Virus record (IMG/VR): IMGVR_UViG_3300047457_000168
Coordinates: 1-30,732 of that record
Direction: 5' to 3' (one strand)
DNA length: 30,732 bases
DNA from: a virus
Position numbers and translations under genes: made by a program
Part shown: piece by piece, positions 6,067-28,780 of the stretch
Layout of the letters: each line of letters opens with the position of its first letter
How positions within the stretch are numbered: the first letter of the stretch is position 1
Notes under the pieces: model-generated
The model's database searches: none
What the model was told of the DNA's origin: nothing
The model's input: the letters and a program-made list of their open reading frames with translations, nothing else

Positions 6067-6097
6067 CAAAGATACACACTTTTTTATATATGCAAAA
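6067..6097 (-). promoter_or_regulatory. Bacteroidetes-type promoter for the early/replication operon
   Basis: On the minus strand TATCTTTG (6074-6067) matches TAnnTTTG and TTTTG (6097-6093) lies 18 bases upstream, a near-ideal host sigma promoter. It stands in a 142-base AT-rich gap between the late operon end (6169) and the first early gene (6026). Confidence 0.8.
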
Positions 6098-12235: not shown

Positions 12236-12389
12236 TTTCTTTTTTAACAAGGTTTGGTTTTTCGAATTCGAAAATGTCAATGATTCCCATGGACAAGTAA
12301 TCGTCGCCTTTTCCAGCTTCTATTTTGACGTACCTTTGTAGATTTGGCGCCCAAACACGGCACCCAATCATTTCGCTTTTTATTTTCAT
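12147..12389 (-). CDS. Small protein, 80 aa, first gene after internal terminator
   Basis: The ATG at 12389 is four bases after a TATATTTG promoter box. The protein starts MKIKSEMIGCRVWAPNLQRY and forms a short sheet (YVKIEAG, MGIIDIFEF) followed by a lysine-rich linker. The end (VDRDGDGIDNNPESE) resembles a calcium-loop pattern but lies in the region overlapping the next gene in another frame, so I give it no weight. The overlap of 89 bases is large; the N-terminal half is the convincing part. The role is unknown, probably structural or accessory. Confidence 0.55.
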   Translation of the reverse strand: MKIKSEMIGCRVWAPNLQRYVKIEAGKGDDYLSMGIIDIFEFEKPNLVKKENAKNTKKRNDVVDRDGDGIDNNPESELSI

Positions 12390-12393
12390 GAAT

Positions 12394-12422
12394 CAAATAT
12401 ATAAAAAAAAGGGACGGGACAA
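12394..12422 (-). promoter_or_regulatory. Bacteroidetes-type promoter inside a terminator, leaderless
   Basis: On the minus strand TATATTTG (12401-12394) lies 18 bases after TTG (12422-12420) and only four bases before the ATG at 12389. Transcription would begin at or next to the start codon. The -33 TTG sits in the loop of the terminator hairpin at 12403-12432. It could restart transcription of the portal-connector-lysis genes. Confidence 0.5.
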
Positions 12423-12432
12423 CGCCCATCCC
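12403..12432 (-). terminator. Intrinsic terminator after the tail tube gene
   Basis: On the minus strand GGGATGGG (12432-12425) pairs with CCCGTCCC (12418-12411) over eight base pairs (one G-T) around a six-base loop, followed by eight T (12410-12403). It lies about 22 bases after the stop at 12455. Confidence 0.8.
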
Positions 12433-12454
12433 CTAATTTAAGTTAGTTCAACGA

Positions 12455-14010: not shown

Positions 14011-14745
14011 TTATAGATTTTTATAAGTTTTTAAAAATTGTTGCTTGGCAGTAAGGTTGCCAGTCCTTGCGAATTTTTCGCTTTCTTTTGTTTCATTTGA
14101 CGGCATCGCCTTGAACGATTCGAAATCGTTTCGCACTGTAGCGATTTCATTTTTCAATTGTGCGTTTTCGTCGGAAATACCTTTCATCATTTCCGCAACG
14201 GCTTCGATTGATCGTGCGAATGATTCAAGTTTTCCGTTGACGATTGCTTCAACATCAATTGCCGACATTGATTCCTCAACCGTTTCGGTTGTCATTTCAT
14301 TTATCTTGGTAATTACGGCGCTTGCAACGTCGTACGCTTTGTCCATTTCAAGTCCTAATTCGGACGCGATTATTTCGGTAACGCCTTCCAAAACCGCGGG
14401 TAAAATTTCACCGGGAACCGCTTCAAATTCCGCGGATGTTTCTTCGGTTGTGGTTTCGCTTGAACCCCTTTCGTCTACAACTTCGGAAATAAATCCATCC
14501 GCGTCAACGGTAATTGTCACACCCATGTAATCGCCTCCGAGCGCGTGCGTTCCTTCGGGTGCTGGGATTCGACCTTCATCTGTTACGATAAAAACTTGTT
14601 GACCAACTTCCAAAGATTCGAATTCAATGGTTGTTTCGCCATCTAATAAGGTAGCCGTTTCAAAGTTCGTTTGAACTTTTTCGGCATTTTCGAACATGGT
14701 CTTGATTCGACCAAGTTCATTCATTACTTTTTCAAATGCGTTCAT
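14011..14745 (-). CDS. Scaffold protein with N-terminal beta domain
   Basis: The 244-residue acidic protein starts MNAFEKVMNELGRIKTMFEN. Residues about 31-90 form a beta-like part (ATLLDGETTIEFESLEVGQQ, VFIVTDEGRIPAPEGTH, VTITVDADGFI). A low-complexity acidic Thr/Glu linker follows (SSETTTEETSAEFEA), then helices with coiled-coil character (IEAVAEMMKGISDENAQLKN) and a basic C-terminus (LTAKQQFLKTYKNL), which in scaffolds binds the capsid protein. Position between protease and capsid supports this. The linker may be where the protease cuts. The start lies 17 bases downstream of the repeated 19-base late motif (14763-14781). Confidence 0.75.
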   Translation of the reverse strand: MNAFEKVMNELGRIKTMFENAEKVQTNFETATLLDGETTIEFESLEVGQQVFIVTDEGRIPAPEGTHALGGDYMGVTITVDADGFISEVVDERGSSETTTEETSAEFEAVPGEILPAVLEGVTEIIASELGLEMDKAYDVASAVITKINEMTTETVEESMSAIDVEAIVNGKLESFARSIEAVAEMMKGISDENAQLKNEIATVRNDFESFKAMPSNETKESEKFARTGNLTAKQQFLKTYKNL

Positions 14746-14762
14746 TTATTTGTTTTTTGTTT

Positions 14763-14781
14763 ATTATGTAATCTTGTTCGA
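14763..14781 (-). promoter_or_regulatory. Late-gene motif copy A (upstream of scaffold)
   Basis: Plus-strand ATTATGTAATCTTGTTCGA. It ends 17 bases upstream of the scaffold start codon on the minus strand. It differs from copy C (24091-24109) only at the second and last base. See the finding on the four copies. Confidence 0.55.
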
Positions 14782-14783
14782 AA

Positions 14784-15689
14784 TTATAATTCGCCCAATT
14801 CTTTCAATTTAGATTCCGTCCATCGCAACCCAGCTTTTCCGCCCCACATTAAATATGAAATTGTTCCACACGCGGACGTGTCGGATTCGTTGTAATATGT
14901 TTCCGCGCGCGATAAATACGAATACATTCTTTTAATGACATCCAACGAAACGGTATCGCGGTTCGCCAACGTGGTCGCGCGTAATCGACCAACTCTCGTT
15001 GCGCATTTATTCCCGTTCTTTTCGTTCAATTCCAAACCACGTTTTGCGTTATTCGAAACCGCTTCCGGGTAATCGTTAAACATTCGGATTCGTTCAACGT
15101 TTCTTTTCCAAAGTTGAATTTCTTTTAAAATCGCTTCGAATTCGGATTCTTGTGTCTTGTCGGTTTCGATTAAATTAAAAACGCCCTCGATTGAAAACCC
15201 GTTGAATTCGCCATTCTTTGCCCGCTCGAATAGTGCTTTATCCGTTACCTTATAAGAAACTAACCACGAACCGTCGTTCGCATCTTTGAAACGTTCGGGT
15301 GCTGTGAATCCCCTTGCGTTGTCGATTTGGTAGCTCATAATCATATAAACCCCATCAACAACCTTGTGCGGATTGTGGTCAAGATTGACGTTGTTAAAAT
15401 TGTTCCGCCTTGCGTAATCAAAAATAATATCGCGAATCGCTTGTTTCGTGAACACGACGTAATATTCCTCCTTTGATTTGTCGTCGTATCGATAAATCGG
15501 TGTGTCCGATGAAATCGCAATTCCGGTAATTACTTGTTGTTCATCGTTGAATTCGTATGCAATTCGCTTGTTGAACATTTCAAAGTTCTTTTCATGCGCG
15601 GGAAATTCAACCATTGCATTGTAGGACACCGTTGTTTCTGGATCGTCCAAGTCAATCATGATTTCGTAAATTGGTAGTTCTTTTCTCAT
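14784..15689 (-). CDS. XkdF-like prohead protease with C-terminal LWGG domain
   Basis: I use ATG 15689 (MRKELPIYEIMIDLDDPETT); an in-frame ATG at 15767 lies inside the divergent gene. Residues 1-200 resemble the XkdF-type (PBSX) prohead protease: YDDKSKEEYYVVFTKQAI, NVNLDHNPHKVVDG (His in the conserved N-x-DH pattern), WLVSYKVTD and GEFNGFSIEGVFN (Ser-Ile-E-G near the active site). Such proteins process scaffold and capsid. The C-terminal 105 residues form a second domain: SNNAKRGLELNEKNG, TRVGRLRATTLANRDTVSLD, IKRMYSYLSRAE and SYLMWGGKAG. A domain with this A-x2-LANG-x-x-VS ... WxLWGG pattern is attached to several phage head proteins; I do not know its function. Confidence 0.75.
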   Translation of the reverse strand: MRKELPIYEIMIDLDDPETTVSYNAMVEFPAHEKNFEMFNKRIAYEFNDEQQVITGIAISSDTPIYRYDDKSKEEYYVVFTKQAIRDIIFDYARRNNFNNVNLDHNPHKVVDGVYMIMSYQIDNARGFTAPERFKDANDGSWLVSYKVTDKALFERAKNGEFNGFSIEGVFNLIETDKTQESEFEAILKEIQLWKRNVERIRMFNDYPEAVSNNAKRGLELNEKNGNKCATRVGRLRATTLANRDTVSLDVIKRMYSYLSRAETYYNESDTSACGTISYLMWGGKAGLRWTESKLKELGEL

Positions 15690-15695
15690 GTTTAT

Positions 15696-15714
15696 ATTAT
15701 GTATCTTTGTTCGA
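15696..15714. promoter_or_regulatory. Late-gene motif copy B, in a divergent 24-base gap
   Basis: Plus-strand ATTATGTATCTTTGTTCGA. It ends six bases upstream of the protease start on the minus strand and, on the plus strand, contains an exact TAnnTTTG box for the Stealth-like gene. Compared with copies A and C, the changes are confined to the AATC/ATCT core. Confidence 0.55.
15702..15709 (+). promoter_or_regulatory. TATCTTTG promoter box of the plus-strand gene
   Basis: TATCTTTG matches the Bacteroidetes -7 consensus and ends four bases before the ATG at 15714, the same spacing as at 12394-12389, so the transcript would be leaderless. I see no clear TTG at the ideal -33 distance, which lowers confidence. 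Confidence 0.5.
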
Positions 15715-16376
15715 TGACTTTTGTTTTCCCTTATCGACGCGGACGCGATGAATTCGAAATTCAACAATCAATCCGATTCATTCGAATGTCATTCCCGAAT
15801 GCGGACATTGTAACCGTTGGCGACAAGGTCGCTGACATTGACAACATTCCATGTCCACAATTCAACAACATTCGCGGTTGTGACGTGACCAATAAGATGT
15901 TGACCTTTGCCCGTGAACGTGGGGGTGAATTCATTTATATGAATGACGATTTCTTCGTGACGCCAAAACTTCGAGCCGACATTCCTATTCATTCCGGGAC
16001 GCTTGAAATTGTGGATCAACATCCCGCGCATTACCGCGAAGCCATGTTTAACACAATTGAATTCTTGAAATATTATGAACGCCCGTTGTGGAATTTTGAA
16101 ACGCATTCCCCCGTTTTAATGGATTCCGAAAAACTACTTCAAACCTTTGAATTGATTGACTGGAAAAAATACAACCATTTTGTAAAGTCAATTTACCTCA
16201 ACATGAACTTACCCGAATTTATTCGAAAAGGTCACAACGTTAAATTGCATCAAGACAATATCGACAAAGCTACGGAATTACTTCAAACCTATGGATGTTT
16301 TTCAACCAATGAAACATTTTTAACCCCGCGCGGTCGGTCGTGGCTTACCAACTTGTTTTGGATTCTTGAAGTTTGA
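15714..16376 (+). CDS. Stealth-like sugar-phosphotransferase / GT-A-type protein (only plus-strand gene)
   Basis: From ATG 15714 (MTFVFPYRRGRDEFEIQQSI) the product has 220 residues; an in-frame ATG at 15699 would overlap the promoter box. The arrangement R-x-x-EF-x-IQQSIRFI, a VTVGD strand (34-38), PQFNNIRGCDVTNKML (48-63) and FIYMNDDFF (73-81) closely follows conserved region 2 of Stealth proteins, which transfer hexose-1-phosphate in capsule synthesis. NDD would bind the metal and nucleotide. Later conserved blocks are less clear, so a related glycosyltransferase is also possible. It runs against all neighbours, sits 24 bases from the divergent protease start and overlaps the end of the tape measure gene by 32 bases. 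This looks like a cargo gene that alters a surface polysaccharide or the virion. Confidence 0.65.
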   Translation: MTFVFPYRRGRDEFEIQQSIRFIRMSFPNADIVTVGDKVADIDNIPCPQFNNIRGCDVTNKMLTFARERGGEFIYMNDDFFVTPKLRADIPIHSGTLEIVDQHPAHYREAMFNTIEFLKYYERPLWNFETHSPVLMDSEKLLQTFELIDWKKYNHFVKSIYLNMNLPEFIRKGHNVKLHQDNIDKATELLQTYGCFSTNETFLTPRGRSWLTNLFWILEV

Positions 16377-19152
16377 CCTTGTTTTGCGTCGCGGAAATAT
16401 CCGATTCCAAAACAAAAACTTGCGTCGACGTGGTCGGCGTTCCTTGAACGGCGCCCCCTAACAATCCAGCGGTTGCGGTTGTGTTCGGTGTTGACGTGAA
16501 CGAACTTGCCGACGCCCCCGCAATCGATGAACCCGCGCCCCCGGTTGATGTTGACGGCATCGACGGGACCCCGCCCGCCTTATATTGTTGGTTCGCAATC
16601 GCCATTGCTTGCGTTATTCCGATGACGCCAGCCGTAGCAATTCCCGCGATTCCCAACGGTGACGGCGGGGGACCATATTCCGCGATCGCTTTCACGATTG
16701 CCGACGCCGTGTCGATTGCGACTTGACTTAATTTGATTGCTTTGTCCCGGTTAAATTGCGCTTTCTTTATTTTTTCCTCTTGATTGTAGGCGTTCAATTG
16801 CACTTGATATTTTTGCTTGGCGAAATTTTGTTCGATTTGTTTCTTTTGTTCTGCGGTCAAGTTTTCCGCGTTCAATTCCGCTTGCATTTTCGCGTCAAGA
16901 TTTGCGAGGTCTTCGTCACGATTTTTTTGTAATGAATTAATTCGCGCTTGGTCGATTTGATTAAACAAGTCATTTAAAACCTTGACGGTGTCAAGTCCCT
17001 TTTGTAATTTACCAAGTGTATCCGTTAACCCTTTTAATTGTTCTTCGCGTGCCTTTTTTTCTTGTTCTTTTATGTAATCGTTTTTCTTTTTATTTATTTC
17101 CTTTTCCTTTTCCGCAAGTTCGGTTTGCAACTTCAATTTAGCGTTGGCAAATTGGTCCTCGGTAATTACGCCCAACTTTAACGCCTCTTCTAAATCTTTG
17201 ATTTGTGTCGCTTGTTGAATTTTCAATTCCTCCGTTTCCTTGTCGAATTCGTCGGTAATTAACAACGTAAACATTTCGCGCAATTCCATTTTGCGTTTTT
17301 CCGTTTCCGCTAAATTCTTGATATCTTCGTCAAGGTATTTCAAATTAATCCCTTGAATATCTTTTCGCAAATTGGTTTCCGCTTGCGTCAACAACGCCTT
17401 TTCCTCGGCGCTTAATTTTTCAATTGCGTTTTTCCGTAGGTTAGCAATTGCGGTTTCATATTCTTGACGTTTCATTTTGTTATCTGCAAAACGCTTGTCA
17501 AGTTCCGCCTTTTCCTCTTTGGTCGCATTAATTAAAAATTGTTCCTTATAATTATTGAATTCCTCTTGACGCAACGCGATTTCCTTTTGAATCCCCGCAT
17601 CCATCCCCGCAATTTTTTGTTTTTCCGTTTCGTCCGCAAGTTTGATTTCGTTATTGTAAAGTTTTTCAAGTTCTGAAATAACACCCTCGCGTTGTTTTCG
17701 CGCTTCGTCAATCCTTCCCTTTGTCGCTTGCTTTTGTTGGTCTTGTTGTTTTTTAAGATTGTCGGCTTGTTGTTTTTGCGCATCCGCTTGCGCCTTTTGT
17801 TGCGCTTTCAAATCGTCCGCTTGTTGTTTTTTTACGTCCGCTTCAAACACCGCAAGCGAATTCGTTGCGTCTTTTAAGTCCTCTTGTGATTTGGCAAGTT
17901 CCCTTTTGCTGGTTTCAATCGCTTTATAAAGTTCATTCAATCGCGCGATTTCCTCCTTTGAACCAAAAACCGTTGTCCCTTCGCCTCGTCGCAATGTTGA
18001 TTTGAACAATTCATATTGCAACGCCGTTTGTTTAACGATGTTTTCGTTTTCCTTTACCAAATCTTTTCGATATTGAATCGACGCCTTGATTCGTGCGCGT
18101 TCCAAATCGGTCGTGTTTTTTCCTTGTGCTTTTGCCAACGCGATTTGTCGTCCAAATTGCGCGTCTTCTTTGTTGAATGAATCCGTTCGCGCTTGCATTC
18201 GTTGACGCGTCTTTTCAATTTCGCGGTCGATGTTGGCAATTTGTTGTTCGGTTCTTTTTTTGTCTTCCCTTGACATTCCAGCGCTGGCGTTGTCGGTCAA
18301 ACCAATCGCATCCGTCAACCAATTAAAACCATCCGCAACGTAATCAATAACCCCGGACAACTTGTCAAGGTTTGCAATCAACATCCCAACCCCAACGATC
18401 AACGCGCCTATTCCCGTTGAAATCAACGCGCCCCTCAAAACCTTTAACGCCGTCGATGTTCCGGTTGTCGCCGTTGTCATTCCAATTTTTGCGCTGGTGT
18501 TTGCTTTGGTCGATGCGGTTTCGGAATTTATAGCCGTAATCGAACCCGTCATGATAAAGTTTTGCGCCTTTTGTAACGCGGTCCGAATTTGAATTCCGAG
18601 AATCGCCTCCTTATTTAGGTTGTTTGCAATTGTAGAAACCGCGTTGACAAGTCCTTGAGTCGCTTGCAATTTTACCATTGTTTGCGTCAACTTCTCATTT
18701 TCGATTCCAGTCAACGCAACCGCGCTTGTCACACCTTGGAAAACCGCGACACCCGTTCCAATTCCAGCCATTGCCGTGTCAAGTCCAACGAAATCGCTCG
18801 ACAACGCGGTCGTTTGCGCTTTCAAGTCACCGATTCGGTCCTTTAAATCGGACGCGTTTTGTAACGCTTGCGCCCCAACGGGGGATTGCGACCCGGTATT
18901 GATTGCGATGTTTTGGTATTCCTTCATGACTTGCGTCATTTCCCGCATCGACAACCCGCCCGCCTCAAGTTTGGCGTCTAATTCCGCCAGCTTTTGCGCG
19001 TAGGCATCCAAACCGCTATTGTCCTTTGCGGTCGTTTGCGCTTTTTGTAGGTCCTTGTCAAGGTCTTTGACGGCTTTATCCGCGTTTTGTAGGTCTTGAA
19101 CGGAATTACCGGTGTTAACTTGTACCGTGAAAATTGCTTGTTTTTCAGCCAT
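16345..19152 (-). CDS. Tape measure protein
   Basis: The longest gene: 935 residues. It starts MAEKQAIFTVQVNTGNSVQD, has long coiled-coil stretches (about residues 15-120 and 275-720, rich in Ala, Lys, Glu and Gln, including KAQADAQKQQADNLKKQQDQ), a hydrophobic segment (ALISTGIGALIVGVGMLIAN, 242-261), and a Gly/Pro/Ser/Thr-rich C-terminus preceded by GIAGIATAGVIGITQAMAIA. These are hallmarks of tape measure proteins, which fix tail length and line the tail tube. By the usual rule of about 0.15 nm per residue the tail would be near 140 nm, a siphovirus length. Its last 32 bases overlap the convergent plus-strand gene. Confidence 0.9.
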   Translation of the reverse strand: MAEKQAIFTVQVNTGNSVQDLQNADKAVKDLDKDLQKAQTTAKDNSGLDAYAQKLAELDAKLEAGGLSMREMTQVMKEYQNIAINTGSQSPVGAQALQNASDLKDRIGDLKAQTTALSSDFVGLDTAMAGIGTGVAVFQGVTSAVALTGIENEKLTQTMVKLQATQGLVNAVSTIANNLNKEAILGIQIRTALQKAQNFIMTGSITAINSETASTKANTSAKIGMTTATTGTSTALKVLRGALISTGIGALIVGVGMLIANLDKLSGVIDYVADGFNWLTDAIGLTDNASAGMSREDKKRTEQQIANIDREIEKTRQRMQARTDSFNKEDAQFGRQIALAKAQGKNTTDLERARIKASIQYRKDLVKENENIVKQTALQYELFKSTLRRGEGTTVFGSKEEIARLNELYKAIETSKRELAKSQEDLKDATNSLAVFEADVKKQQADDLKAQQKAQADAQKQQADNLKKQQDQQKQATKGRIDEARKQREGVISELEKLYNNEIKLADETEKQKIAGMDAGIQKEIALRQEEFNNYKEQFLINATKEEKAELDKRFADNKMKRQEYETAIANLRKNAIEKLSAEEKALLTQAETNLRKDIQGINLKYLDEDIKNLAETEKRKMELREMFTLLITDEFDKETEELKIQQATQIKDLEEALKLGVITEDQFANAKLKLQTELAEKEKEINKKKNDYIKEQEKKAREEQLKGLTDTLGKLQKGLDTVKVLNDLFNQIDQARINSLQKNRDEDLANLDAKMQAELNAENLTAEQKKQIEQNFAKQKYQVQLNAYNQEEKIKKAQFNRDKAIKLSQVAIDTASAIVKAIAEYGPPPSPLGIAGIATAGVIGITQAMAIANQQYKAGGVPSMPSTSTGGAGSSIAGASASSFTSTPNTTATAGLLGGAVQGTPTTSTQVFVLESDISATQNKVKLQESKTSW

Positions 19153-19345
19153 GTAAAGAAATTAAAAAATCGTTGATGTCCTCGAATGATTCGCCGTTGA
19201 TTGACATTGTGGTGTCCATAAAAATGACACCGCGATCCGTTGAAACGTGCGCTTGTGTTTTGTCAAGAATTTCGTCTTGACCTTCAAATGTGAATTCGAT
19301 TTCATTCATGATAAAACCGTTTTCGATTGTGGTTAAATTAGTCAT
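19145..19345 (-). CDS. Small protein upstream of tape measure (66 aa)
   Basis: The protein begins MTNLTTIENGFIMNEIEFTF. An alternative start is Met13 (MNEIEFTFEGQDEIL), at 19309. It is acidic, with a sheet-like centre (VIFMDTTMSINGESF) and a hydrophobic C-terminal end (DINDFLISLHG). It overlaps the tape measure start by eight bases and the end of the fibre gene by eight. Small genes before a tape measure sometimes encode tail-assembly chaperones, but this one is far smaller than usual and has no visible slippage partner. The function is unknown. Confidence 0.6.
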   Translation of the reverse strand: MTNLTTIENGFIMNEIEFTFEGQDEILDKTQAHVSTDRGVIFMDTTMSINGESFEDINDFLISLHG

Positions 19346-20033
19346 AAATTTGAACTATGTATTTTTTGTGTCCTAAATTGTCCGGTGTTGTCGTTGAATT
19401 TTGAACGGCAAAAATCAAATAATTGTCAACCAAATTGTTGAACGCAACATTTGAAATTGTCGACGCGGTTAAATCCGTCGCGAATCCATTCACAACACTA
19501 ATGCAAATTAAATTCGTCCCATCAAACAAAAAATTCCTTTCGAATCGTTGAAAATAACTTGAGCCATTCATTGATTGACTACTCGCAAGTAATGTTGCAC
19601 CCGTCAACGAATTCGTTGTGTTTATATAAATTCGACCCGTTGACGTTGTTGATCCCGCGCTTTTCGTTAAAATGTTTCGAACCCAAATTGATTTATTTGC
19701 CGTCAACGTTCCCGCTGGTATTAAAACCGACGCGCTAATTTGATTCGTTGTACCGGTTAAATTCAACCCCGTTCCACTTGCCAACGTAATCGGATTCGTT
19801 TGAATCGTAATGTTGCCCGAACCAAGCAAAGACGTTGAGTTGATTGTTTTGATATTCGTCCCGGAAATCAACGTCGCTTGACGTCCCTCTTGTGCGCTGG
19901 TAATTATTTCCGCGCCCGTTATTGACTTTGTTGCGTAGCCATCCGGTGCAACCTCCGAAATCATTAATAAATCGGTTGAATCAAGCGCCCGTTCTTTTGG
20001 CGTCAATTGTGAAATTTTCTTTTTTTCTTGCAT
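19338..20033 (-). CDS. Tail fibre-like protein
   Basis: The 231-residue protein opens MQEKKKISQLTPKERALDST, followed by DLLMISEVAPDGYATKSITGAEI, an N-terminal attachment pattern seen in tail fibres of Bacteroidetes phages. Next comes the shaft signature INSTSLLGSGNITIQ (about 65-80), a repeat type found in many fibre proteins, then a Ser/Thr/Asn-rich beta body (SAGSTTSTGRIYINTTNSLT) and a terminal domain ending KYIVQIYD. It probably contacts the host surface at the tail tip; it is shorter than most receptor-binding proteins, so it may be an accessory fibre. It is encoded directly after the large tip protein. Confidence 0.65.
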   Translation of the reverse strand: MQEKKKISQLTPKERALDSTDLLMISEVAPDGYATKSITGAEIITSAQEGRQATLISGTNIKTINSTSLLGSGNITIQTNPITLASGTGLNLTGTTNQISASVLIPAGTLTANKSIWVRNILTKSAGSTTSTGRIYINTTNSLTGATLLASSQSMNGSSYFQRFERNFLFDGTNLICISVVNGFATDLTASTISNVAFNNLVDNYLIFAVQNSTTTPDNLGHKKYIVQIYD

Positions 20034-20034
20034 T

Positions 20035-22341
20035 TTATTGTTCGGTTATTATTGTATTTTCTTCGCCTTCGGTTATTATTTCGTCGTATGGTTGCGATTC
20101 AATAATGATTTCATCGCTTGCCATTCCTTCGCCTTGAATCAATCGCAACAATTCAACTTGCGTTGTTCGTTCCTTGGTCGAATCGTAATCGCTAATCTTT
20201 TGCAATCGGTAAACAACGCCGTTGATGTTGATTAGATTTCGAAAATCAAGCGCGTTAATTATTGACGTGTCAATCTTTACATAACAAGTCAAAAGTTTTC
20301 CGTACCTCGAAACCAATTCTTGAATAAACGTGTTGTGGTAATTCAACAAATTGTTATTGGTGTACGTCAACGCTGGGTAATATACGACTTGAGGAACACC
20401 GAAATTCAAATCGAACGTTGGCGTGTCAATGTCGTCAAGGTGTCCGACGTATGGGTATTGAATTAAATTGTGCTGGTTGTTGAATTCGTCATGATATTTC
20501 CACGTCGCGTTTCGCATGGCTCCCAAATTAACAATGAACGCCGTTCCTTTTTTCGGGACCTTTTGCCCGTTGGCGGAATCGTCAAGGTTGATTTGAAACG
20601 CGCAAGGAACAATCAAGTCCGGATGAATTTCAACCAATGGTTTTTGACTGAATGGTAACGCCATGTTGGTGACTTCGGTCGCGTATTGCGATTGACTTAA
20701 TATGGCGAATTCGCCGTAATTGGTCAAATATTCGTTTTGATATTGATCGTTATAATAGTCCTCATCTTGTTTGAATTCGAAATTGTATTCTTTTGACGCG
20801 TAATTAATTGTTGGCGTGACTTGTAATTCTTGAGAATAGTCAACCAATTGCGTCCAGTCAAGCGCGTTTTGTGAACCATTGTAAAATTCCGACAAAGGTT
20901 CAATTTCCAAAACCGTTGGGTCAAACGTTGACGGCTTTATCATTAAATTGAACATCGTTGTCAATCCTTTTAAAAATACATCGCCCGTCATGTCGGGTAA
21001 AAACGAACCAATCGCAACCGTTCCTCCGGGGACAAGTTCTTGAATTGACTTGTTGAAATTAACTTGCGTGACCAACGTTTGCAATCCGATTGTTCGCGTC
21101 AATGTTGGCGCCCCTAATGATTGCGCATTTTTGATTTGCAAATTAACTTGAAACGAAAACACGTCATTTATTGCGCAATTCAATTGACGCGAATAAGTGA
21201 ATGTAAATAAGTTCGAATAATTTCCAAAAATGGTCGATGCCGTGTCTTGATAAATAATGTCATTCGATACAACCGTTCCGTTTTTCAAAATAGACAAACG
21301 AAATTCAACGTTGAAATAGTGTTGCGCTAATTGGTCAAAGGTAATGTCAAGTTGATGTTGACCGTTATATTCAACGGTGTACAATCCATTCGTTCCCGCC
21401 GTAATCGACAACGGTGTTGTGGATGTTGCTTGTCCCAAAGGATCGACCACACCAACCACGTCGACAATGTCGTTCGTGTTCGTGTCGTTCCAGTAAATCA
21501 ACCCCGAACCGCCTATTCCGAATGTTTGCCCATATATAATGTAACCGCCCGCGTTGTTGTTTTCATAAGATTGAACCGAATCGTTCAACGCTTGCGCTGG
21601 GGTAATCGTTGGAAAATTCCCGCCATAATAGGCAACCAATAATTTTTTGAACAATTGACTTTCGATAAAATCCGATTGCCATGTAATGCCAACGTAATCG
21701 AATAACTTTTTCAAGATTCCGTAAACGAAAACTTGCGGGGGTATTTGGTCGCAATCGAACTTGTCGGACGTTGGTCGCGGGTATCCGTAATCAATCAACC
21801 CATAATAATAACCCTCCCCGTTCCAGTCCATCCCCGTCATGATTGACGTTGAAACACCGTTGATTTGGTTGAACCCCGTCCATGTTTCGGTTTGATTCGC
21901 CATGGTCAACGCATGGTTGTATTCCGAAAAATCAAGTTCGTTTATCTTGACCTTATTCAATCGACCAATATAGTCAATGGTATCGGACACCAATGTCACG
22001 TCAAAATTCCACGTTCCGTTTTTCAACTTGCATTCTTGTAATTGCGCAACCCCGTTGAACTCCAAAATCCCATTGTTATAATAACGCGCCGTAGCTTTGA
22101 CGCTTGGGTCAAAATCAAGAAACGCGGAATTCGTGGACGTTGTGTCGTCGGTGTACGTCAATAAGAAAATCGAGCGGAAAATTGCACAATTCGAATTCGT
22201 TCCGGGAATCGTAATCGTTTTCGATTTGTTCCCTTTTCTCGAACTCAAATCGCGGATGTCCGAAATATTGAACGTCAACGGGAACGGTAACGTTTCGTCG
22301 ATGTCAATCAATCGGTTATTTATGTATAATTCCCCAGCCAT
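20035..22341 (-). CDS. Large tail-tip / baseplate hub-like protein
   Basis: This 768-residue protein starts MAGELYINNRLIDIDETLPF and soon contains the pattern ISDIRDLSSRKGNKSKTITIPGT (about 25-48). The combination of a conserved short sheet and the S-R-K/Q-G-x-x-S-K-T-x-x-x-PGT stretch recurs in large tail proteins of Bacteroidetes phages. The rest is beta-rich with many Asn, Gln and aromatic residues. A helix-poor middle part has FVYGILKKLFDYVGITWQSD (about 208-227), typical of hub-like proteins. By position (between tip protein and fibre) and size it would be the hub or central tip protein (Tal analogue). There is no visible peptidase motif. Its start overlaps the previous stop by one base (TAATG). 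Confidence 0.6.
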   Translation of the reverse strand: MAGELYINNRLIDIDETLPFPLTFNISDIRDLSSRKGNKSKTITIPGTNSNCAIFRSIFLLTYTDDTTSTNSAFLDFDPSVKATARYYNNGILEFNGVAQLQECKLKNGTWNFDVTLVSDTIDYIGRLNKVKINELDFSEYNHALTMANQTETWTGFNQINGVSTSIMTGMDWNGEGYYYGLIDYGYPRPTSDKFDCDQIPPQVFVYGILKKLFDYVGITWQSDFIESQLFKKLLVAYYGGNFPTITPAQALNDSVQSYENNNAGGYIIYGQTFGIGGSGLIYWNDTNTNDIVDVVGVVDPLGQATSTTPLSITAGTNGLYTVEYNGQHQLDITFDQLAQHYFNVEFRLSILKNGTVVSNDIIYQDTASTIFGNYSNLFTFTYSRQLNCAINDVFSFQVNLQIKNAQSLGAPTLTRTIGLQTLVTQVNFNKSIQELVPGGTVAIGSFLPDMTGDVFLKGLTTMFNLMIKPSTFDPTVLEIEPLSEFYNGSQNALDWTQLVDYSQELQVTPTINYASKEYNFEFKQDEDYYNDQYQNEYLTNYGEFAILSQSQYATEVTNMALPFSQKPLVEIHPDLIVPCAFQINLDDSANGQKVPKKGTAFIVNLGAMRNATWKYHDEFNNQHNLIQYPYVGHLDDIDTPTFDLNFGVPQVVYYPALTYTNNNLLNYHNTFIQELVSRYGKLLTCYVKIDTSIINALDFRNLININGVVYRLQKISDYDSTKERTTQVELLRLIQGEGMASDEIIIESQPYDEIITEGEENTIITEQ

Positions 22342-23561
22342 TAAAACAATTGTGAATTGTATGTATACGTTCTTTGAATGTTCACTACTTCGCGAATCAA
22401 TCCGTCAACCCTACGTTGTCTTAACGTGTAATCGCCATTCGTAATTTTAACGGGTTCGAACGCGCCCGGTGTTGATTCCAAATAAACTTTTGGCGATTCG
22501 TAAAGATCGCGGACCAACCAATTTTGAAAAGATTCGTGCATCCAGTCACTATTCAAAACAAGGATGTCCGTTGAATATTTGTTGAACGCCATTTGTTCAC
22601 CGTGGTATTTATTGTAATTCCAAGCCGTGCCGTTTGTTGACCATTCCCCACGTTCGCGCTGGTAATCGCTTGTAATGACTTGCGACGAATCAACCGACAC
22701 AAGCGTAAATGTATACGAATCCCAACCGCCCAATTTATTCAACCAATGTAGTCGGCGCGTTTCGTAGCGGTGACATTCTGTGTCAATCCAAAATGTAAAG
22801 ATTTCGGAATAACCCGAAAACAACGCCGGGGTGTCGGTTGCTTGAACTCTTATTGTATAATATGCGGACGCGTTGAAATTCGCCAGCGTGACCGTTGTGT
22901 TTGCGATTAGGTTATTCGGCGAAACATCCAACACACCCATGTTCAACGCAAGCGCGACGGCGATTGTGTCGGTTGCAATCAAGGTATTTGTAATGTCGTA
23001 AAGATTCAATTCAAAATTGGTTGTTGCCGAACCGCCTCGATTCAAAAACGAAAGGAATACCGATTCATTCAATCCGACGAAATATTTTCGCGCCCGTGGG
23101 AAATCAGTTAAAAATAAAATGTTTCCCGAATTTGGATTGATTCTTGAAACCATGTAATCGTAATGATTGTAGGTAATGAAATCCGGGTGTCGCAAAGATG
23201 AATTCCAAGCGCGCGAAATTTGACTTTGTGCGGGTGTTGGTTGTATGGTCGCGGGTGTTCCGTATTTTTCGTAAACCTTAATTTGAACGAATCCGATTGC
23301 GGGATCGGTGAAATTCAACAACGCGCCCGTCGTTACCATTTCGGAGGTCAATAAACAACGCAAGTCACCCGACGCGTCGAACTTCGCATAGTTCAAAGAT
23401 TCGTTGAAAACTTGGTGTGTTGAAACCAAAACGAAATCAACATACAATTCAACGATGAACGAAAAATTCGGTTGTGCGGTTTGCGTCGATTCGAAAACCC
23501 AAACGTATGGGTTGCAAGCTGGTTGAAAATATTGGGGTTGTTGTGTTATTGTTATTGCCAT
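22341..23561 (-). CDS. Tail-tip structural protein, 406 aa
   Basis: The protein starts MAITITQQPQYFQPACNPYV and continues WVFESTQTAQPNFSFIVELY. The I-x-Q-QP-x-x-x-x-P-A-x-NP opening is one I associate with a structural protein next to the tail hub in Bacteroidetes phages. The sequence alternates short beta strands with loops; there is a Cys/Trp-rich middle section (WIDTECHRYETRRLHWLNKL, about 253-272) and a YNKYHGEQMAFNKY stretch. It may be a distal tail protein (Dit analogue) that joins tube and hub. The exact role is unproven. Confidence 0.55.
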   Translation of the reverse strand: MAITITQQPQYFQPACNPYVWVFESTQTAQPNFSFIVELYVDFVLVSTHQVFNESLNYAKFDASGDLRCLLTSEMVTTGALLNFTDPAIGFVQIKVYEKYGTPATIQPTPAQSQISRAWNSSLRHPDFITYNHYDYMVSRINPNSGNILFLTDFPRARKYFVGLNESVFLSFLNRGGSATTNFELNLYDITNTLIATDTIAVALALNMGVLDVSPNNLIANTTVTLANFNASAYYTIRVQATDTPALFSGYSEIFTFWIDTECHRYETRRLHWLNKLGGWDSYTFTLVSVDSSQVITSDYQRERGEWSTNGTAWNYNKYHGEQMAFNKYSTDILVLNSDWMHESFQNWLVRDLYESPKVYLESTPGAFEPVKITNGDYTLRQRRVDGLIREVVNIQRTYTYNSQLF

Positions 23562-24073
23562 TTTTCCGTGGTCTTTTCAAAATTAATTTCAAATGTTAAT
23601 CCCGTCACTTCGCTCAAATCTTTTGCGATCCGTTCCAACACGTCGTCGGTTATAACCGAATCAGTAATGTTTTTCGGTCGCAACCCTCGTTGTTTTATAT
23701 TCGATGCAACCGCGAACGCGTGCGACATTTCCAACCCCTTCCATTCACTTATTGCCGTCGCCATGTTATAACCAACAAACGGCGTCTTGAATGAGAATTC
23801 ACTACCTACATTCGACGCGATTCCGTTCACCCCTTGGTCCACGAACTTATAATAATAGTCCGCTTGGATTTCAAACGACAACGCGCCCGTGGGGAAATAA
23901 ACAACCGATTGCGCCAACGCCCCGGTATTGTTTGCGTTTTGTGTTATGTATTCTCGGAGGTCTTTGGTAATCTTATTCCCTACGTCAAGAATGAATTGTT
24001 CGTAAACGTTCGACGGATTTTCCGCATCTTGAACCGACACCCCGAATTCATCAAGAAAATCGAATTCAGCCAT
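23552..24073 (-). CDS. HK97 gp10-like neck/tail-completion protein
   Basis: The 173-residue protein starts MAEFDFLDEFGVSVQDAENP. The sequence NNTGALAQSVVYFPTG followed by SFEIQADYYYKFVDQGVNG (about 47-88) follows the gp10-family pattern: G-x-L-x-x-S, a strand, then Y-x-x-(Y/F)-V-(E/D)-x-G. Members close the head-tail interface or tail end. The C-terminal half has helices (AISEWKGLEMSHAFAVASNI, then DDVLERIAKDLSEVTGL). It starts 17 bases downstream of a copy of the repeated late motif (24091-24109) and is the first gene of a tail block. The family call is moderate; the position is consistent. Confidence 0.65.
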   Translation of the reverse strand: MAEFDFLDEFGVSVQDAENPSNVYEQFILDVGNKITKDLREYITQNANNTGALAQSVVYFPTGALSFEIQADYYYKFVDQGVNGIASNVGSEFSFKTPFVGYNMATAISEWKGLEMSHAFAVASNIKQRGLRPKNITDSVITDDVLERIAKDLSEVTGLTFEINFEKTTEKWQ

Positions 24074-24090
24074 TGCGCGATTGTTTACTT

Positions 24091-24109
24091 AATATGTAAT
24101 CTTGTTCGT
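24091..24109 (-). promoter_or_regulatory. Late-gene motif copy C (upstream of gp10-like gene)
   Basis: Plus-strand AATATGTAATCTTGTTCGT. It ends 17 bases upstream of the start codon at 24073, the same spacing as copy A, in a 54-base gap between genes. Confidence 0.55.
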
Positions 24110-24127
24110 CCTTTAGTTTTAGATAGT

Positions 24128-24850
24128 TTATCCAAAATAATGTTTCGATGTATGGTCGTTTAGTAATTTCATTAATTGGTCGTCCGAATTCATTTCCCAA
24201 TCGATGTAGGACCTTGGTCCATGTGAACCATTCGTTGTCCTTAATTTCGTTTCGATTTGTTTCGTCATCAACATCGCTTTCAAGGTCTGAATCCCCAATA
24301 TAGCGTTGCTCCGCTTTTCGGATTCGAGCAAAAAAAAACCAAAGAAATTCATAAATTCAACACCGTCGAATTGTTCCTTGAACACCTCATATCGTTTCGC
24401 GTTAGGATTCAGCACTCGCCCGCGTTCGTCCTCTTGACAATATTCCATCCCCTTTTCAATATAACAAATCGCCAGCGCTTGACACGGATCGCTCGAAATG
24501 TCTTCGATTAATTTCAAGTCAATAATTTGACCGGTTGAAATATATTCAAAGTTTTTTTCAAAAACATACGTTTGACCTTTGATTGTAATTTCACCCGTCG
24601 GTTCTTTGTATTCGTACGACGAAAGCAATTTGAATAAATGCTTCGACAATTCTTGTACGTCGGCAACGTTTATTTTCTTAACCTTGTTTAAAGGTATCCC
24701 CGAAAAAATCGAAATCAATTGACATTGAAAATCAAGCATTCGAAACAAATCTTCGTCGGTCTTTTCCTTAATGACATCCGCCAACATCAACCATTTAGTC
24801 AATTGCTCCGGACGGCATTCGTTCAATGTTGCGGGTAAAGTTATTTTCAT
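24128..24850 (-). CDS. Tail-assembly chaperone-like or accessory protein, 240 aa
   Basis: Opens MKITLPATLNECRPEQLTKW, then LMLADVIKEKTDEDLFRMLD and LISIFSGIPLNKVKKINVAD. A run of helices with an F-SGI-x-L-x-x-V-x-x-I turn is the pattern of many tail-assembly chaperones and of similar proteins in Bacteroidetes phages. A conserved-looking strand part follows (GEITIKGQTYVFEKNFEYIS) and a Gln/Glu helix (SSDPCQALAICYIEKGMEYC). I see no evident -1 frameshift extension. It is coupled to the terminase gene through ATGA (24847-24850). The assignment is tentative. Confidence 0.4.
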   Translation of the reverse strand: MKITLPATLNECRPEQLTKWLMLADVIKEKTDEDLFRMLDFQCQLISIFSGIPLNKVKKINVADVQELSKHLFKLLSSYEYKEPTGEITIKGQTYVFEKNFEYISTGQIIDLKLIEDISSDPCQALAICYIEKGMEYCQEDERGRVLNPNAKRYEVFKEQFDGVEFMNFFGFFLLESEKRSNAILGIQTLKAMLMTKQIETKLRTTNGSHGPRSYIDWEMNSDDQLMKLLNDHTSKHYFG

Positions 24851-26049
24851 ATTCTCATGGTTTGATATTTCCCTTTGTGTTTATTCGACTTCAAAGAATT
24901 GACCGCAAGCGCCAACGAAATCACGCCGTCGTCATGCAATCCAACGGGTGCGCTATATTGAACGCCCCTTGTGTTTGGGTTGTAAATATAGGTAAATGAA
25001 TCCAGTTCGTCAAGCAACCAACCAACATCATTCACACGAATGTTCCTTTGCTCGAATGACAACGCGAGGTCTTCAATCAATTGCGGTTTGCTTTTCGACG
25101 TGGTCACGAATGGAACAATTTTCCCCGGTAATTTCTTCGAAAGCATTTCCGCGAAAACATCCCCTTGATTGTTTACTTCGACCGTTGTAATCGCGTTGTA
25201 ATTACGAATCAAGTCCGCTACCTTGTCAATGATGCGCGACCAATCGTCATGACGCCAGCGTTGAACCGTTACCATTTCGCCCCGTTCGTTCAAGATAGTT
25301 AACACCGTGTAATCGTCCGCGCGACCGATGTCAAGTCCTCCGTAATTACGCGATGAACGTTCACCGTGTCCGATGCAATTACGAACGCCCTTGAATAATC
25401 CGCCAGCATTGTCGAGGAATTCCGCAAGGTATTCTTGTTTGAAAACGTGTTCGGGTAATGACCGACGCCGTTCGTCCAATTCCTTCGGATCAATCAACGG
25501 ATTGTCGTAACTTGTGAAATGAAAATATTTGTAGCGGTCGTCGTAATTCGGTTGCAAGCAAACACGATGAAAATGATTTTTGCCTTTCGGCGTTGATATG
25601 AACAAAACCTTTTTTCCCTTGACCATGACCGTCGCGGACAATACTTCATCCCAAAGTTCGGGACGCGTGAAAGCGAATTCATCAATGACCATGTAATTGA
25701 ATGTATTTCCTCGAATGTTGTCGGGACGTTCCCCGGAAAAGAATTCAATCGACGAACCGAATCCAGTTATTCGCAAGTCCGATTTGTTGAATTCAAATAA
25801 ACCAGACTTGGAAACCGCTCGTTCCATTTCGGCGAAAACTTTTTTACCTTGTTTGTATACCGGCGTCACCCATGCAATCGAACACCCTCGGTCATTGATT
25901 GCCCACCAAAGCAATTGGTTGATTCCAAGTAAAGTTTTTCCGAATTGCCGACCAATGTTTAACGCAAAATATTTTTCGGTACCTTGGTTGATTGCTCGAT
26001 GTATTTCGAGCTGGCGTGAATGCGGTTTGTATCCCTTAATCGTTGACAT
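24847..26049 (-). CDS. terL: Terminase large subunit
   Basis: Start ATG 26049 (MSTIKGYKPHSRQLEIHRAI), 400 residues; the frame extends upstream, but that part lies in the small-subunit gene. The ATPase part has Walker A GRQFGKT (33-39), the segment FNYMVIDEFAF with Walker B (VIDE) and the coupling motif ISTPKGK. The nuclease domain has the metal-binding acids in GGLDIGRADDYT (first Asp), TTVEVNNQGD (Glu) and GLHDDGVISLALA (Asp pair). TerL packages DNA into the prohead and cuts it. All expected motifs are present. It overlaps the small-subunit gene by 14 bases and is coupled to the next by ATGA. Confidence 0.92.
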   Translation of the reverse strand: MSTIKGYKPHSRQLEIHRAINQGTEKYFALNIGRQFGKTLLGINQLLWWAINDRGCSIAWVTPVYKQGKKVFAEMERAVSKSGLFEFNKSDLRITGFGSSIEFFSGERPDNIRGNTFNYMVIDEFAFTRPELWDEVLSATVMVKGKKVLFISTPKGKNHFHRVCLQPNYDDRYKYFHFTSYDNPLIDPKELDERRRSLPEHVFKQEYLAEFLDNAGGLFKGVRNCIGHGERSSRNYGGLDIGRADDYTVLTILNERGEMVTVQRWRHDDWSRIIDKVADLIRNYNAITTVEVNNQGDVFAEMLSKKLPGKIVPFVTTSKSKPQLIEDLALSFEQRNIRVNDVGWLLDELDSFTYIYNPNTRGVQYSAPVGLHDDGVISLALAVNSLKSNKHKGKYQTMRI

Positions 26050-26443
26050 CGAAATCGAACCTTTCCACGTTGCGCGTTTCGACTTGTTGTCGGTCGTGCA
26101 TCCCCAGTTTGTTTTTCGCGTAGAAAATTCCCTTGCCTTCGTTGGCAACAATGTCACGCGCCAACGAATTGAAAATTTCGTCGATGCTTTTTATAGTGTT
26201 CGACAATGGATGACTTTCATCTTTCATGGCATCGTACCAATTCGTTCGAGAATAAAAATCAAAATGTTCCCTACGCAACCAATGTAAAAGAAAATACGAC
26301 ACGGTCGGAATGTGACGTTCACGAACTTGTTTGACACCCGAATTCGTGGCGATTTCTTTTGTCGACGCGATACAATAATCGCAATAACGATGCGCCATTG
26401 TCATCAATTCGTCTTTATCAATATTTCGGTGTTTATTTGCCAT
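26036..26443 (-). CDS. terS: Terminase small subunit
   Basis: The 135-residue protein starts MANKHRNIDKDELMTMAHRY and has a helical N-terminal part ending in a helix-turn-helix-like block (STKEIATNSGVKQVRERHIP, then TVSYFLLHWLRREHFDFYSR). A central helix pair (LSNTIKSIDEIFNSLARDIV) and a basic-acidic tail with NKLGMHDRQQVETRN complete it. The K-N-x-x-G-x-x-D-x-(Q/K) tail is common in small terminases, which bind the packaging site and hand DNA to the large subunit. It lies directly upstream of terL, and its start is 21 bases after copy D of the late motif. Confidence 0.8.
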   Translation of the reverse strand: MANKHRNIDKDELMTMAHRYCDYCIASTKEIATNSGVKQVRERHIPTVSYFLLHWLRREHFDFYSRTNWYDAMKDESHPLSNTIKSIDEIFNSLARDIVANEGKGIFYAKNKLGMHDRQQVETRNVERFDFDVND

Positions 26444-26464
26444 AAGAATATAATTGTCCCAAAT

Positions 26465-26483
26465 ATTATGTTTACTTGTTCGA
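26465..26483 (-). promoter_or_regulatory. Late-gene motif copy D (upstream of terminase genes)
   Basis: Plus-strand ATTATGTTTACTTGTTCGA, 21 bases upstream of the terS start. It overlaps the last codons of the preceding glycosyltransferase gene. Confidence 0.5.
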
Positions 26484-27101
26484 AATGCGTTTAAGTCCTT
26501 TGAATTTACTAAAAGATGTCATCCCTTCGCCGTCCTTAATATCGACCAACATCAAATCGTTTTGTTTTAAACTTGTGACGTGAATCTTTGCTTTTGCTTG
26601 ATTGACCCTTTGCCATGAAATTTTGTCAAGTCCTCGATCCCTTGCAACGTCAAAAAGATTCCAGTTCAAACATTCAAGGAATTTCCGTGAATAAACTTTC
26701 CCCGCACCACATGGTTCCCCCCGTCGGTTGTTGTCGTAACCGGACCAATAATACAACCCTCCGTCGTGCTGAAAATAAATGTCTTTAAATCCAATCATGT
26801 CGTAATTCGGAATCGTTCGTTCAACGTAGCGAATGAATGCTTCGTCAATGTAGTCGTCGGACCCCAGCAAAACAACCGCGTCGAAATCGATTTGTTCGAG
26901 CGTTCGAATTGCCATGTTCCATTTGTACGACAACGGTTCGTTTCTATATTTCGCCATCGCAAAAATATCTTGTGTCTCAAGGAACGCGCCGTCTTCATCA
27001 TTTGAATAAATATAAACCTTGTCGATGAACGGCATTCTTTGAATGCATTCGGCAACGGTCTTGTGGCGCCCATGCATGGCTGAAACGGTAATGATTTTCA
27101 T
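26472..27101 (-). CDS. GT-A fold glycosyltransferase-like protein
   Basis: The 209-residue protein starts MKIITVSAMHGRHKTVAECI. It has a first beta strand followed by a helix (nucleotide-sugar-binding N-terminus), the stretch KVYIYSNDEDGAFLE, then FDAVVLLGSDDYIDEAFI with the metal-binding DD (82-83), the GT-A hallmark. After it come FKDIYFQHDGGLYYWSGYDN, an acceptor-side loop (RRGEPCGAGKVYSRKFLECL) and a C-terminal WQR helix. It most resembles family 2-type glycosyltransferases, but the sugar donor and acceptor are unknown. It overlaps the LpxA-like gene by ATGA (27098-27101), so the two are translationally linked. Possible targets are host surface glycan or phage virion proteins. Confidence 0.65.
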   Translation of the reverse strand: MKIITVSAMHGRHKTVAECIQRMPFIDKVYIYSNDEDGAFLETQDIFAMAKYRNEPLSYKWNMAIRTLEQIDFDAVVLLGSDDYIDEAFIRYVERTIPNYDMIGFKDIYFQHDGGLYYWSGYDNNRRGEPCGAGKVYSRKFLECLNWNLFDVARDRGLDKISWQRVNQAKAKIHVTSLKQNDLMLVDIKDGEGMTSFSKFKGLKRISNK

Positions 27102-27580
27102 TTGTTATTGGATCGAATTATTCGCGCTGGATTGCCGACCAAAACGGTGTTTGGTTCGGTCGGTGTTTTCTTTGTAATTACCGCCGACATCCCGACCATA
27201 CATTTCGCGGGTATCGTGACGCGCTGGTGAATCGTGGCATTCATTCCGATGTTTGTTTCTTCGTGTATTTCAACGAATCCGCCAACCACAACGTGCGGGG
27301 AAATTGTCACGTTCTTGTGAATTATTGCGTCGTGTCCGACGTGTACGGTTTTCATAATATAGGCGCCGTCGTCAATTATTGTTGGACGTTCACAACCCGC
27401 GTCAATTGTGGCGTGACCGTGAATAGTGACATCGTTACCAATAACAACACCGAAACCCGGTTGTCCCTCGTGACGTTTCGATTCCGCTGGCGCTCCGATT
27501 ATGCAAAAGGGACCGATTGTGACGTTTTTACCAATTGTCACACCGGGATAAATTACGGATGTCGGGTGAATGTCAACCAT
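27098..27580 (-). CDS. LpxA-like hexapeptide-repeat acyltransferase
   Basis: The 160-residue protein opens MVDIHPTSVIYPGVTIGKNV and continues with left-handed beta-helix hexapeptide repeats through about residue 150 (VTIGPFCIIGAP, VVIGNDVTIHGH, VTISPHVVVGGF, NIGMNATIHQRVTIP). Compared with E. coli LpxA, VHVGHDA (79-85) corresponds to its AHIAHDC: His83 matches catalytic His125 and His118 matches His160, while His144 is replaced by Phe102. The end VLVGNPARII is typical. Known LpxA moves a 3-hydroxyacyl chain to UDP-GlcNAc; the missing C-terminal helical domain and the Phe swap suggest a different sugar acylation here, such as O- or N-acetylation. It is coupled to the glycosyltransferase gene. 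Confidence 0.78.
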   Translation of the reverse strand: MVDIHPTSVIYPGVTIGKNVTIGPFCIIGAPAESKRHEGQPGFGVVIGNDVTIHGHATIDAGCERPTIIDDGAYIMKTVHVGHDAIIHKNVTISPHVVVGGFVEIHEETNIGMNATIHQRVTIPAKCMVGMSAVITKKTPTEPNTVLVGNPARIIRSNNK

Positions 27581-27947: not shown

Positions 27948-28137
27948 AAATCAACAATAAATCGGACATTAAGTAACTTAAAAAAGCATAAGGAATCATT
28001 GAAACGTCAATGAAACAATACAAGACAACCGCCGTCCAAAACGACAAGCATGATTGACAATTGAACGGTTTAATGTCTGGAATTTCAAAGGTCATGAACG
28101 CCCGCGCAATTGCGACCGCAATAATCGAATAAATCAT
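27934..28137 (-). CDS. Small membrane protein with CxxC (DUF1360-like)
   Basis: I use ATG 28137 (MIYSIIAVAIARAFMTFEIP), giving 67 residues; the start lies in the end of the sigma-like gene (53-base overlap). An N-terminal membrane segment is followed by PFNCQSCLSFWTAVVLYCFI (24-43): a C-x-x-C-L-x-FW pattern typical of DUF1360-like phage membrane proteins, in which a membrane helix directly follows the Cys pair. A third hydrophobic stretch leads to the charged end (IYEHK). The function of that family is not known. Confidence 0.6.
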   Translation of the reverse strand: MIYSIIAVAIARAFMTFEIPDIKPFNCQSCLSFWTAVVLYCFIDVSMIPYAFLSYLMSDLLLIYEHK

Positions 28138-28567
28138 TTTTAAATTGTTTAATGGTTTTATGAATAGTGTCAAGCGAAATGCCGGTCAATTCTTTAATTT
28201 CTCTGAATGTCATTCCGCAAAGGTGCATTTTCGTTATTTCTTTTATGAAATTTTCTTGATCCGTCGAACCGCTTTGTTCCAAAAATTCCGCAAGTTTTTC
28301 GCTAAATTGATTTTGTGACGGCGATTCGTTGACGTCCACAACATCGTTGATTGCGTCACCGTCCGACCTATATAACCGCCAAAATTCCGACCTTTTCCAC
28401 GTCCATTGATTCCATGCGAATCTTGAAAATATAGCGGGAATATCGGCATCGTTAAAGTTAAAACGGTGCATGAGAATAAAAACATGACCAACCAAATCAC
28501 CCGCAAGTTCATGATTCGACGTGATTTTTCGAGCGATTTGATAGGCGTCATGTTGCCAAAATTTCAT
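28085..28567 (-). CDS. Sigma-factor-like protein
   Basis: The 160-residue protein starts MKFWQHDAYQIARKITSNHE. Residues about 12-60 (ELAGDLVGHVFILMHRF, then IPAIFSRFAWNQWTWKRSEFWR) resemble region 2 of ECF-type sigma factors, including the helix that melts the promoter. Residues about 115-150 (MTFREIKELTGISLDTIHKT) form a region 4-like helix-turn-helix. Between them is an acidic, Ser-rich linker (DVVDVNESPSQNQFSEK). It is expected to direct RNA polymerase to phage promoters, most likely late ones, because it is the first gene of the late region. Several late genes share a 19-base motif that could be its target. Region 2 is weakly conserved, so it might instead be a transcription co-activator. 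Confidence 0.65.
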   Translation of the reverse strand: MKFWQHDAYQIARKITSNHELAGDLVGHVFILMHRFNFNDADIPAIFSRFAWNQWTWKRSEFWRLYRSDGDAINDVVDVNESPSQNQFSEKLAEFLEQSGSTDQENFIKEITKMHLCGMTFREIKELTGISLDTIHKTIKQFKNDLFDYCGRNCAGVHDL

Positions 28568-28570
28568 GGA

Positions 28571-28780
28571 CTAATTTACAAAATATTTAAACCAAGCGAT
28601 AAAAAATTCTTGACCGACTGGTTTCCCGTTCATAAATCGATACAACATCGAATAATTTACTTTCATATCTTCGGCAAGGTGTGTCATCTTATAACGCTTG
28701 TCAAGTCGTGACGTTGTCATTTTGCGCATCCAGTCGACAACGTTGGAATCGTCAGAAAGGTAAATCGTCATCGTTTTCAT
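28571..28780 (-). CDS. Small helix-turn-helix protein (Cro/repressor-like)
   Basis: The 69-residue protein starts MKTMTIYLSDDSNVVDWMRK. Alternative starts are Met4 and Met18; the longest overlaps the SSB stop by 29 bases. The central part (YKMTHLAEDMKVNYSMLYRF, about 30-49) is a helix-turn-helix of Xre/Cro type, followed by MNGKPVGQEFFIAWFKYFVN. Such proteins bind operator DNA. A possible target is the palindrome at 6091-6106 over the early promoter. No integrase or lysogeny cassette is seen, so it is more likely a timing regulator than a lysogeny repressor. Confidence 0.6.
   Translation of the reverse strand: MKTMTIYLSDDSNVVDWMRKMTTSRLDKRYKMTHLAEDMKVNYSMLYRFMNGKPVGQEFFIAWFKYFVN

Follow-up and report, generated by a model that had tools for sequence, protein, structure and literature searches.

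What is the short sequence that stands before four late genes of an uncultured phage genome, and which protein would read it? We examined this question in IMG/VR record IMGVR_UViG_3300047457_000168, the whole 30,732 nucleotides of which are referred to here as the window. A sequence-only reading of this DNA had described a 19-base motif in four copies and proposed a phage-specific late promoter, with a boundary for module exchange as the alternative. None of the papers searched reported the motif CGAACAA-N4-ACATAATA or described how phages of this kind control their late genes. We consider it probable that the motif is a late promoter, most likely read by the phage's own sigma-like protein. 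The strand bias of the motif, its recurrence before the same genes in relatives, and the predicted fold and co-occurrence of the candidate partner argue for the promoter first proposed; its role, its reading by the protein encoded at 28085-28567 and the timing of its use are what we infer here.

The phage genome and its relatives

The record carries an exact 127-bp direct repeat at its ends (1-127 = 30606-30732). The window is thus probably the whole of a circularly permuted genome, 30,605 bp in length, although the record is classed as linear, and the four motif copies would be the full set. End repeats of a like kind are present in many relatives. Protein-seeded scans yielded 132 loci from uncultured relatives, and the full-genome comparisons were made on the window and 17 full relatives. 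These phages form an uncultured family with genomes of about 31 to 33 kb and, probably, Bacteroidota hosts. Among annotated phages, neither a nucleotide search nor a search with the capsid protein found a relative, and a scan of genome collections for the host gave nothing decisive: one MAG has a short contig with a 91% capsid match, and a Prevotellaceae MAG matches weakly. As for a T7-type single-subunit polymerase, none of the four open reading frames of more than 500 amino acids in the complete genome had a polymerase match in Pfam.

Two other regions of the minus strand were noted in passing. Between the early block and the TerS gene, 26472-27580 holds an acyltransferase-like hexapeptide-repeat gene (27098-27580) and a gene of unknown function (26472-27101), both missing in about half of the full relatives. 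Near the primase gene, 4554-4967 encodes a small protein with a DnaA C-terminal DNA-binding domain (PF08299), possibly an origin-binding protein.

Four copies of a two-block motif before late genes

The motif copies and the first gene past each of them are as follows, with bit scores from a matrix built only from relatives.

26464..26483, minus strand: copy D, TCGAACAAGTAAACATAATA, 5' of the TerS gene, gap to ATG 21 nt, 30.5 bits
26036..26443, minus strand: small terminase subunit (TerS), first gene past copy D, phrog_606
24090..24109, minus strand: copy C, ACGAACAAGATTACATATTA, 5' of the gp10-like gene, gap to ATG 17 nt, 26.8 bits
23552..24073, minus strand: gp10-like gene (name from the earlier reading), first gene past copy C, phrog_29822, unknown function
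15695..15714, minus strand: copy B, TCGAACAAAGATACATAATA, 5' of the protease gene, gap to ATG 6 nt, 28.4 bits
14784..15689, minus strand: head maturation protease, first gene past copy B, Peptidase_S78_2 (PF14550)
14762..14781, minus strand: copy A, TCGAACAAGATTACATAATA, 5' of the scaffold gene, gap to ATG 17 nt, 30.8 bits
14011..14745, minus strand: scaffold-like gene, first gene past copy A, so named from its composition and its position between the protease and major capsid genes

The scaffold-like gene (14011..14745) had no family match, and copy D overlaps the stop codon of its upstream gene (26472). The sequences, coordinates and minus-strand distances to the scaffold, protease, gp10-like and TerS genes (17, 6, 17 and 21 nt) given in the sequence-only reading were all exact. 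The motif that it described is real, but the conserved unit is 20 nt long rather than 19 and consists of two blocks, CGAACAA-N4-ACATAATA. With the relatives' matrix, the four copies score 26.8 to 30.8 bits and everything else in the window stays below 10 bits. The consensus of the four copies, with up to three mismatches, matches the window 6 times against 1.19 expected from dinucleotide shuffles, and 0 of 100 shuffles reach 6. It had also been claimed that every gap between late genes of more than about 20 bases without a terminator hairpin contains a copy; this is true of the stretch between TerS and the major capsid gene but fails at 9330-9386. In the middle of the late region, the minus strand at 12281-12454 shows a terminator-like hairpin and T run (GGGGATGGGCGTTGTCCCGTCCCTTTTTTTT) directly followed by a host-type promoter match (12394-12422), which is unexpected at such a position.

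Conservation of the motif in uncultured relatives

The motif is kept in about a hundred uncultured relatives. In 61 non-redundant sites it reads CGAACAA, four AT-rich bases and ACATAATA, with GAAC nearly invariant and little information in the flanks. Across the 132 loci, TCGAACAANNNNACATAWT with up to two mismatches was found 183 times in the coding sense and 11 times in antisense, compared with 9 and 5 times for a reversed control. In the window and the 17 full relatives, the relatives' matrix at 16 bits or more gave 73 sense sites, 0 antisense sites and 0 in the Markov control, nearly all of them before the TerS, gp10-like, protease or scaffold genes. Six genomes (G002 and G012-G016) have an additional class of the motif, mostly GAGAACAAYTAAACATAATA, before a small membrane-protein gene. 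When block spacings of 0 to 25 nt were scanned, enrichment was seen only at 5 nt from GAACA to ACATAWT, equal to 4 nt between the blocks. Among relatives identified by TerL at 33-38% identity, the motif is absent.

A matrix scan and recurrence in related phages had both been put forward as checks on the promoter proposal. In the scan, no copy within another gene scored as high, and the sites in relatives lie at the same genes and on one strand only.

A phage-encoded sigma-like protein as the candidate reader

28085..28567, minus strand: ECF-sigma-like protein of 160 amino acids, proposed late sigma factor, from an AlphaFold2 model and PDB fold matches

That the phage encodes a sigma-like protein, as the sequence-only reading had it, is borne out by a predicted two-domain fold of region 2 and region 4, while ECF sigma profiles match the protein below their curated cut-offs. 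The AlphaFold2 model (pLDDT 74.8, pTM 0.46) has helices at residues 2-66 and 87-149, arranged as in sigma2 and sigma4. Its matches in the PDB are mostly sigma factors, the best being Mycobacterium tuberculosis SigL, which aligns over residues 1-156 at Z 8.8 but differs in how its domains are placed (rmsd 23). Region 4 of Escherichia coli sigmaE matches the model at an rmsd of 2-3, and the best Foldseek E-value was 0.007. Among annotated phages, no protein had sequence similarity to the sigma-like protein at an E-value of 1e-5, and the single weak match had an E-value of 0.1.

A homologue of the sigma-like protein is found in 18 of 18 motif-bearing records and in 0 of 6 that lack the motif, a co-occurrence that other early genes show equally well; more distant carriers of the protein likewise have the motif. 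In one clade, ACTTAAT replaces ACATAAT at all four sites, which points to a change in one shared trans-acting reader. Residue Gln54 of the sigma-like protein, in a stretch that HMMER aligns with region 2 of SigE, is invariant in 116 of 119 homologues, and Glu is found only in the three sequences of the ACTTAAT clade. When 18 conserved proteins of the ACTTAAT genome were inspected for changes at otherwise invariant columns, the sigma-like protein had one, TerL one and the primase six; the pairing of Gln54Glu with ACTTAAT is a single event and only suggestive. In addition, motif position 2 is C at 97 of the 98 sites that go with an intact D133/T134/H136 and at 0 of 34 others, a count at the level of sites that on the tree represents 2 to 3 independent events and is not significant. 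Residues 133, 134 and 136 lie in the recognition helix of sigma4. The comparisons make the link between the sigma-like protein and the motif plausible.

An unusual spacing of the two blocks

GAAC is the typical -35 box of promoters read by ECF sigma factors. The motif carries a box of this type without the ECF spacing of 16-17 bp between -35 and -10: its blocks are 4 bp apart, and none of the known sigma70-family geometries fits a GAAC box and a -10-like box at such spacing. A normal -10 element was rejected: placed 16-17 bp from GAAC, it would coincide with the beginning of the protease gene or lie within it, and it shows no conservation. Downstream of the motif nothing further is conserved in the 61 non-redundant sites. 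The consensus has neither the GG at -24 nor the GC at -12 in the right place for sigma54, and its sense strand lacks the TAnnTTTG of the Bacteroidota primary sigma.

Either region 4 of the phage sigma would sit unusually, or a second factor would read GAAC. A tentative version of the former is that one ECF-like sigma reads a compressed promoter with region 4 about 12 bp nearer the start, which would be a new geometry of the holoenzyme; at one site this promoter would be overlaid on an opposite-strand host promoter, so that an early and a nearly leaderless late promoter share 20 bp. We regard this fuller reading as possible, with the odds somewhat against it.

A second factor appears in the alternative that fares best, in which the host sigma-polymerase is recruited by a phage activator, as in T4 middle transcription. 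The activator would bind CGAACAA, leaving ACATAATA to serve the host sigma as a poor -10/-7 element; this role could fall to a conserved 69-amino-acid protein encoded at 28571-28780 or to the sigma-like protein, if it acts as a DNA-binding protein. Such an arrangement accounts for blocks that lie closer together than a -35/-10 pair could, and the 69-amino-acid protein is present in all 17 full relatives. However, the 3' block lacks TAnnTTTG, the box of the likely host, and in the clade with the changed motif the invariant columns of the 69-amino-acid protein are all unchanged, whereas the sigma-like protein has one change. We consider an activator unlikely.

Distance to the start codon

In all classes of the motif, the distance to the start codon is 4 to 23 nt and never less than 4. 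At the protease genes the gap is 4-8 nt, and the N-termini of these proteins are conserved from the first residue. Together these point to transcription beginning within a few bases of the motif, which would put the 3' block at the -10/-7 position. The tightest copies would then give leaderless or almost leaderless mRNA. In Bacteroides thetaiotaomicron, 5' untranslated regions of less than 10 nt are rare, at about 3.7% (PMC7366714).

A motif that always stands just 5' of start codons could also act in the RNA, at the 5' ends of late mRNAs, in ribosome recruitment, processing or regulation rather than as a promoter. The variable distance to the ATG speaks against a ribosome site, each genome has the motif before just 4-5 genes, the 3' block is -10-like, and the 5' block contains GAAC like ECF -35 boxes. 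An element of this kind is quite improbable, more so than the activator.

Two faces of the site before the protease gene

Copy B differs from the other copies in what lies on its opposite strand.

15702..15709, plus strand: host-type -7 box TATCTTTG (TAnnTTTG), opposite strand of copy B, four bases before the ATG of the divergent gene at 15714
15714..16376, plus strand: divergent gene of unknown function, sharing the copy B region, homologue in 16 of 17 full relatives

TAnnTTTG is the -7 box of Bacteroidota (PMC7366714). The copies had been said not to fit this host box on the minus strand, which is correct for the sense strand; the fit of copy B on the plus strand had been missed. The divergent gene is the only long gene on the plus strand, its start codon overlaps the proposed late promoter of the protease, and it had no Pfam match; the apparent host-type box would give it a leaderless mRNA. 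TAnnTTTG is present in 29 of 29 distinct protease-upstream sequences that have the divergent gene and in 0 of 2 that lack it. Only in these 2 of the 31 (L094 and L109) is the gene absent. In the other classes of the motif, TAnnTTTG occurs at 3 of 127 sites.

The 29 of 29 would suit an explanation in which copy B is primarily the host promoter of the divergent gene and the late motif there a by-product. Against it, L094 and L109 have lost both the gene and TAnnTTTG and keep a weaker late motif before the protease, and the other classes have the motif without TAnnTTTG, making this account very unlikely.

A coding overlap before the gp10-like gene

Copy C is real and stands 5' of the gp10-like gene, but it is not in plain intergenic DNA as had been assumed and overlaps a coding frame. 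The gene at 24128-24850 continues out of frame to about 24066 (..LKDEQDYILSKQSRNG), a continuation that is conserved and contains copy C, and part of the similarity at copy C is that of coding sequence. Within copy C, however, Ile is encoded by ATA in 15 of 17 distinct sites, compared with 15.7% of Ile codons in these genomes, a preference that indicates a constraint at the DNA level. Copy C is lost or broken in three genomes (G015, G017 and G018). The gene thus extended (24066-24850, minus strand) overlaps the next start through its conserved C-terminal part, which lies in another frame, and a T run at about 24338 (GGTTTTTTTTTGC) may be a site of programmed frameshifting like those of tail assembly chaperones.

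Least probable of all is the boundary for module exchange, in which A/B and C/D mark exchangeable cassettes: the copies do flank the protease and the terminase block, but they have a single orientation 4-23 nt before a start codon, their N4 differs among copies in one genome, the sites of a clade all change in concert, and both the protease (between A and B) and the terminase diverge in step with neighbouring genes, all of which counts against the boundary originally offered as the alternative.

Discussion

Our preferred reading remains a late promoter recognized by the phage's own sigma-like protein, and its likely course can be outlined on the circular map. Host polymerase would transcribe the early and replication genes from TAnnTTTG promoters, the best host-type match being the following.

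6067..6096, minus strand: best match to a host-type (Bacteroidota) promoter, TTTGCATATATAAAAAAGTGTGTATCTTTG, from a pattern scan, before replication genes

This match has the form TTTG-N-TAnnTTTG and is the best of its type on the minus strand. On the circular map this block runs on as far as the ECF-sigma-like gene at 28085-28567, which lies immediately upstream of the first late promoter. The product of that gene would then recruit host core polymerase to each of the four late promoters, with late units starting at TerS, the gp10-like gene, the protease and the scaffold. In the promoter, ACATAATA would be the -10/-7 element for sigma region 2, and GAAC is the type of box that ECF region 4 reads.

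By our comparison, the closest known systems appear to be the sigma factors of phages phiEco32 and 7-11. The phiEco32 sigma factor gp36 reads middle and late promoters with a single element, tAATGTAtA, and a start 6-8 bp downstream, and gp47 of 7-11 reads late promoters of the form GTAAtg-16-aCTA (PMC8948821). As in phiEco32, a small phage sigma-like protein would act with host core polymerase on a phage-specific motif before late genes (in phiEco32 also middle genes), with early promoters left to the host sigma. Unlike the single element of phiEco32, whose host belongs to the Enterobacteria, the motif here has two blocks with GAAC. As in 7-11, the late promoter would be bipartite and read by a phage sigma, with a copy at each of several late operons, but the spacer is 4 bp here and a normal 16 bp in 7-11.

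To our knowledge, T4 late promoters have no upstream box, which is a difference from the present motif. Both late (gp55) and middle (MotA/AsiA) transcription in T4 resemble the proposed system in combining phage-specific late control with the host core polymerase, and T4 middle promoters also have an upstream box outside the -35 position (PMC2988020, PMC6755090). The GAAC core of the upstream block and a sigma2-sigma4 model are shared with ECF promoters, as in E. coli sigmaE region 4 on -35 DNA (PDB 2h27), although the block lies about 12 bp nearer the start than the ECF -35 box. Promoters of the Bacteroidota primary sigma (TTTG / TAnnTTTG, with the box close to the start; PMC7366714) have a counterpart in copy B, on its opposite strand, and differ from the motif, the sense strand of which has no TAnnTTTG.

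With a promoter, a candidate factor and natural variants of both (the ACTTAAT clade and Gln54Glu), a single purified protein is enough to test the mechanism. The unusual spacing would probe how rigid the promoter geometry of the sigma70 family is and, if it works, the pair of promoter and sigma could be an orthogonal expression switch in Bacteroidota.
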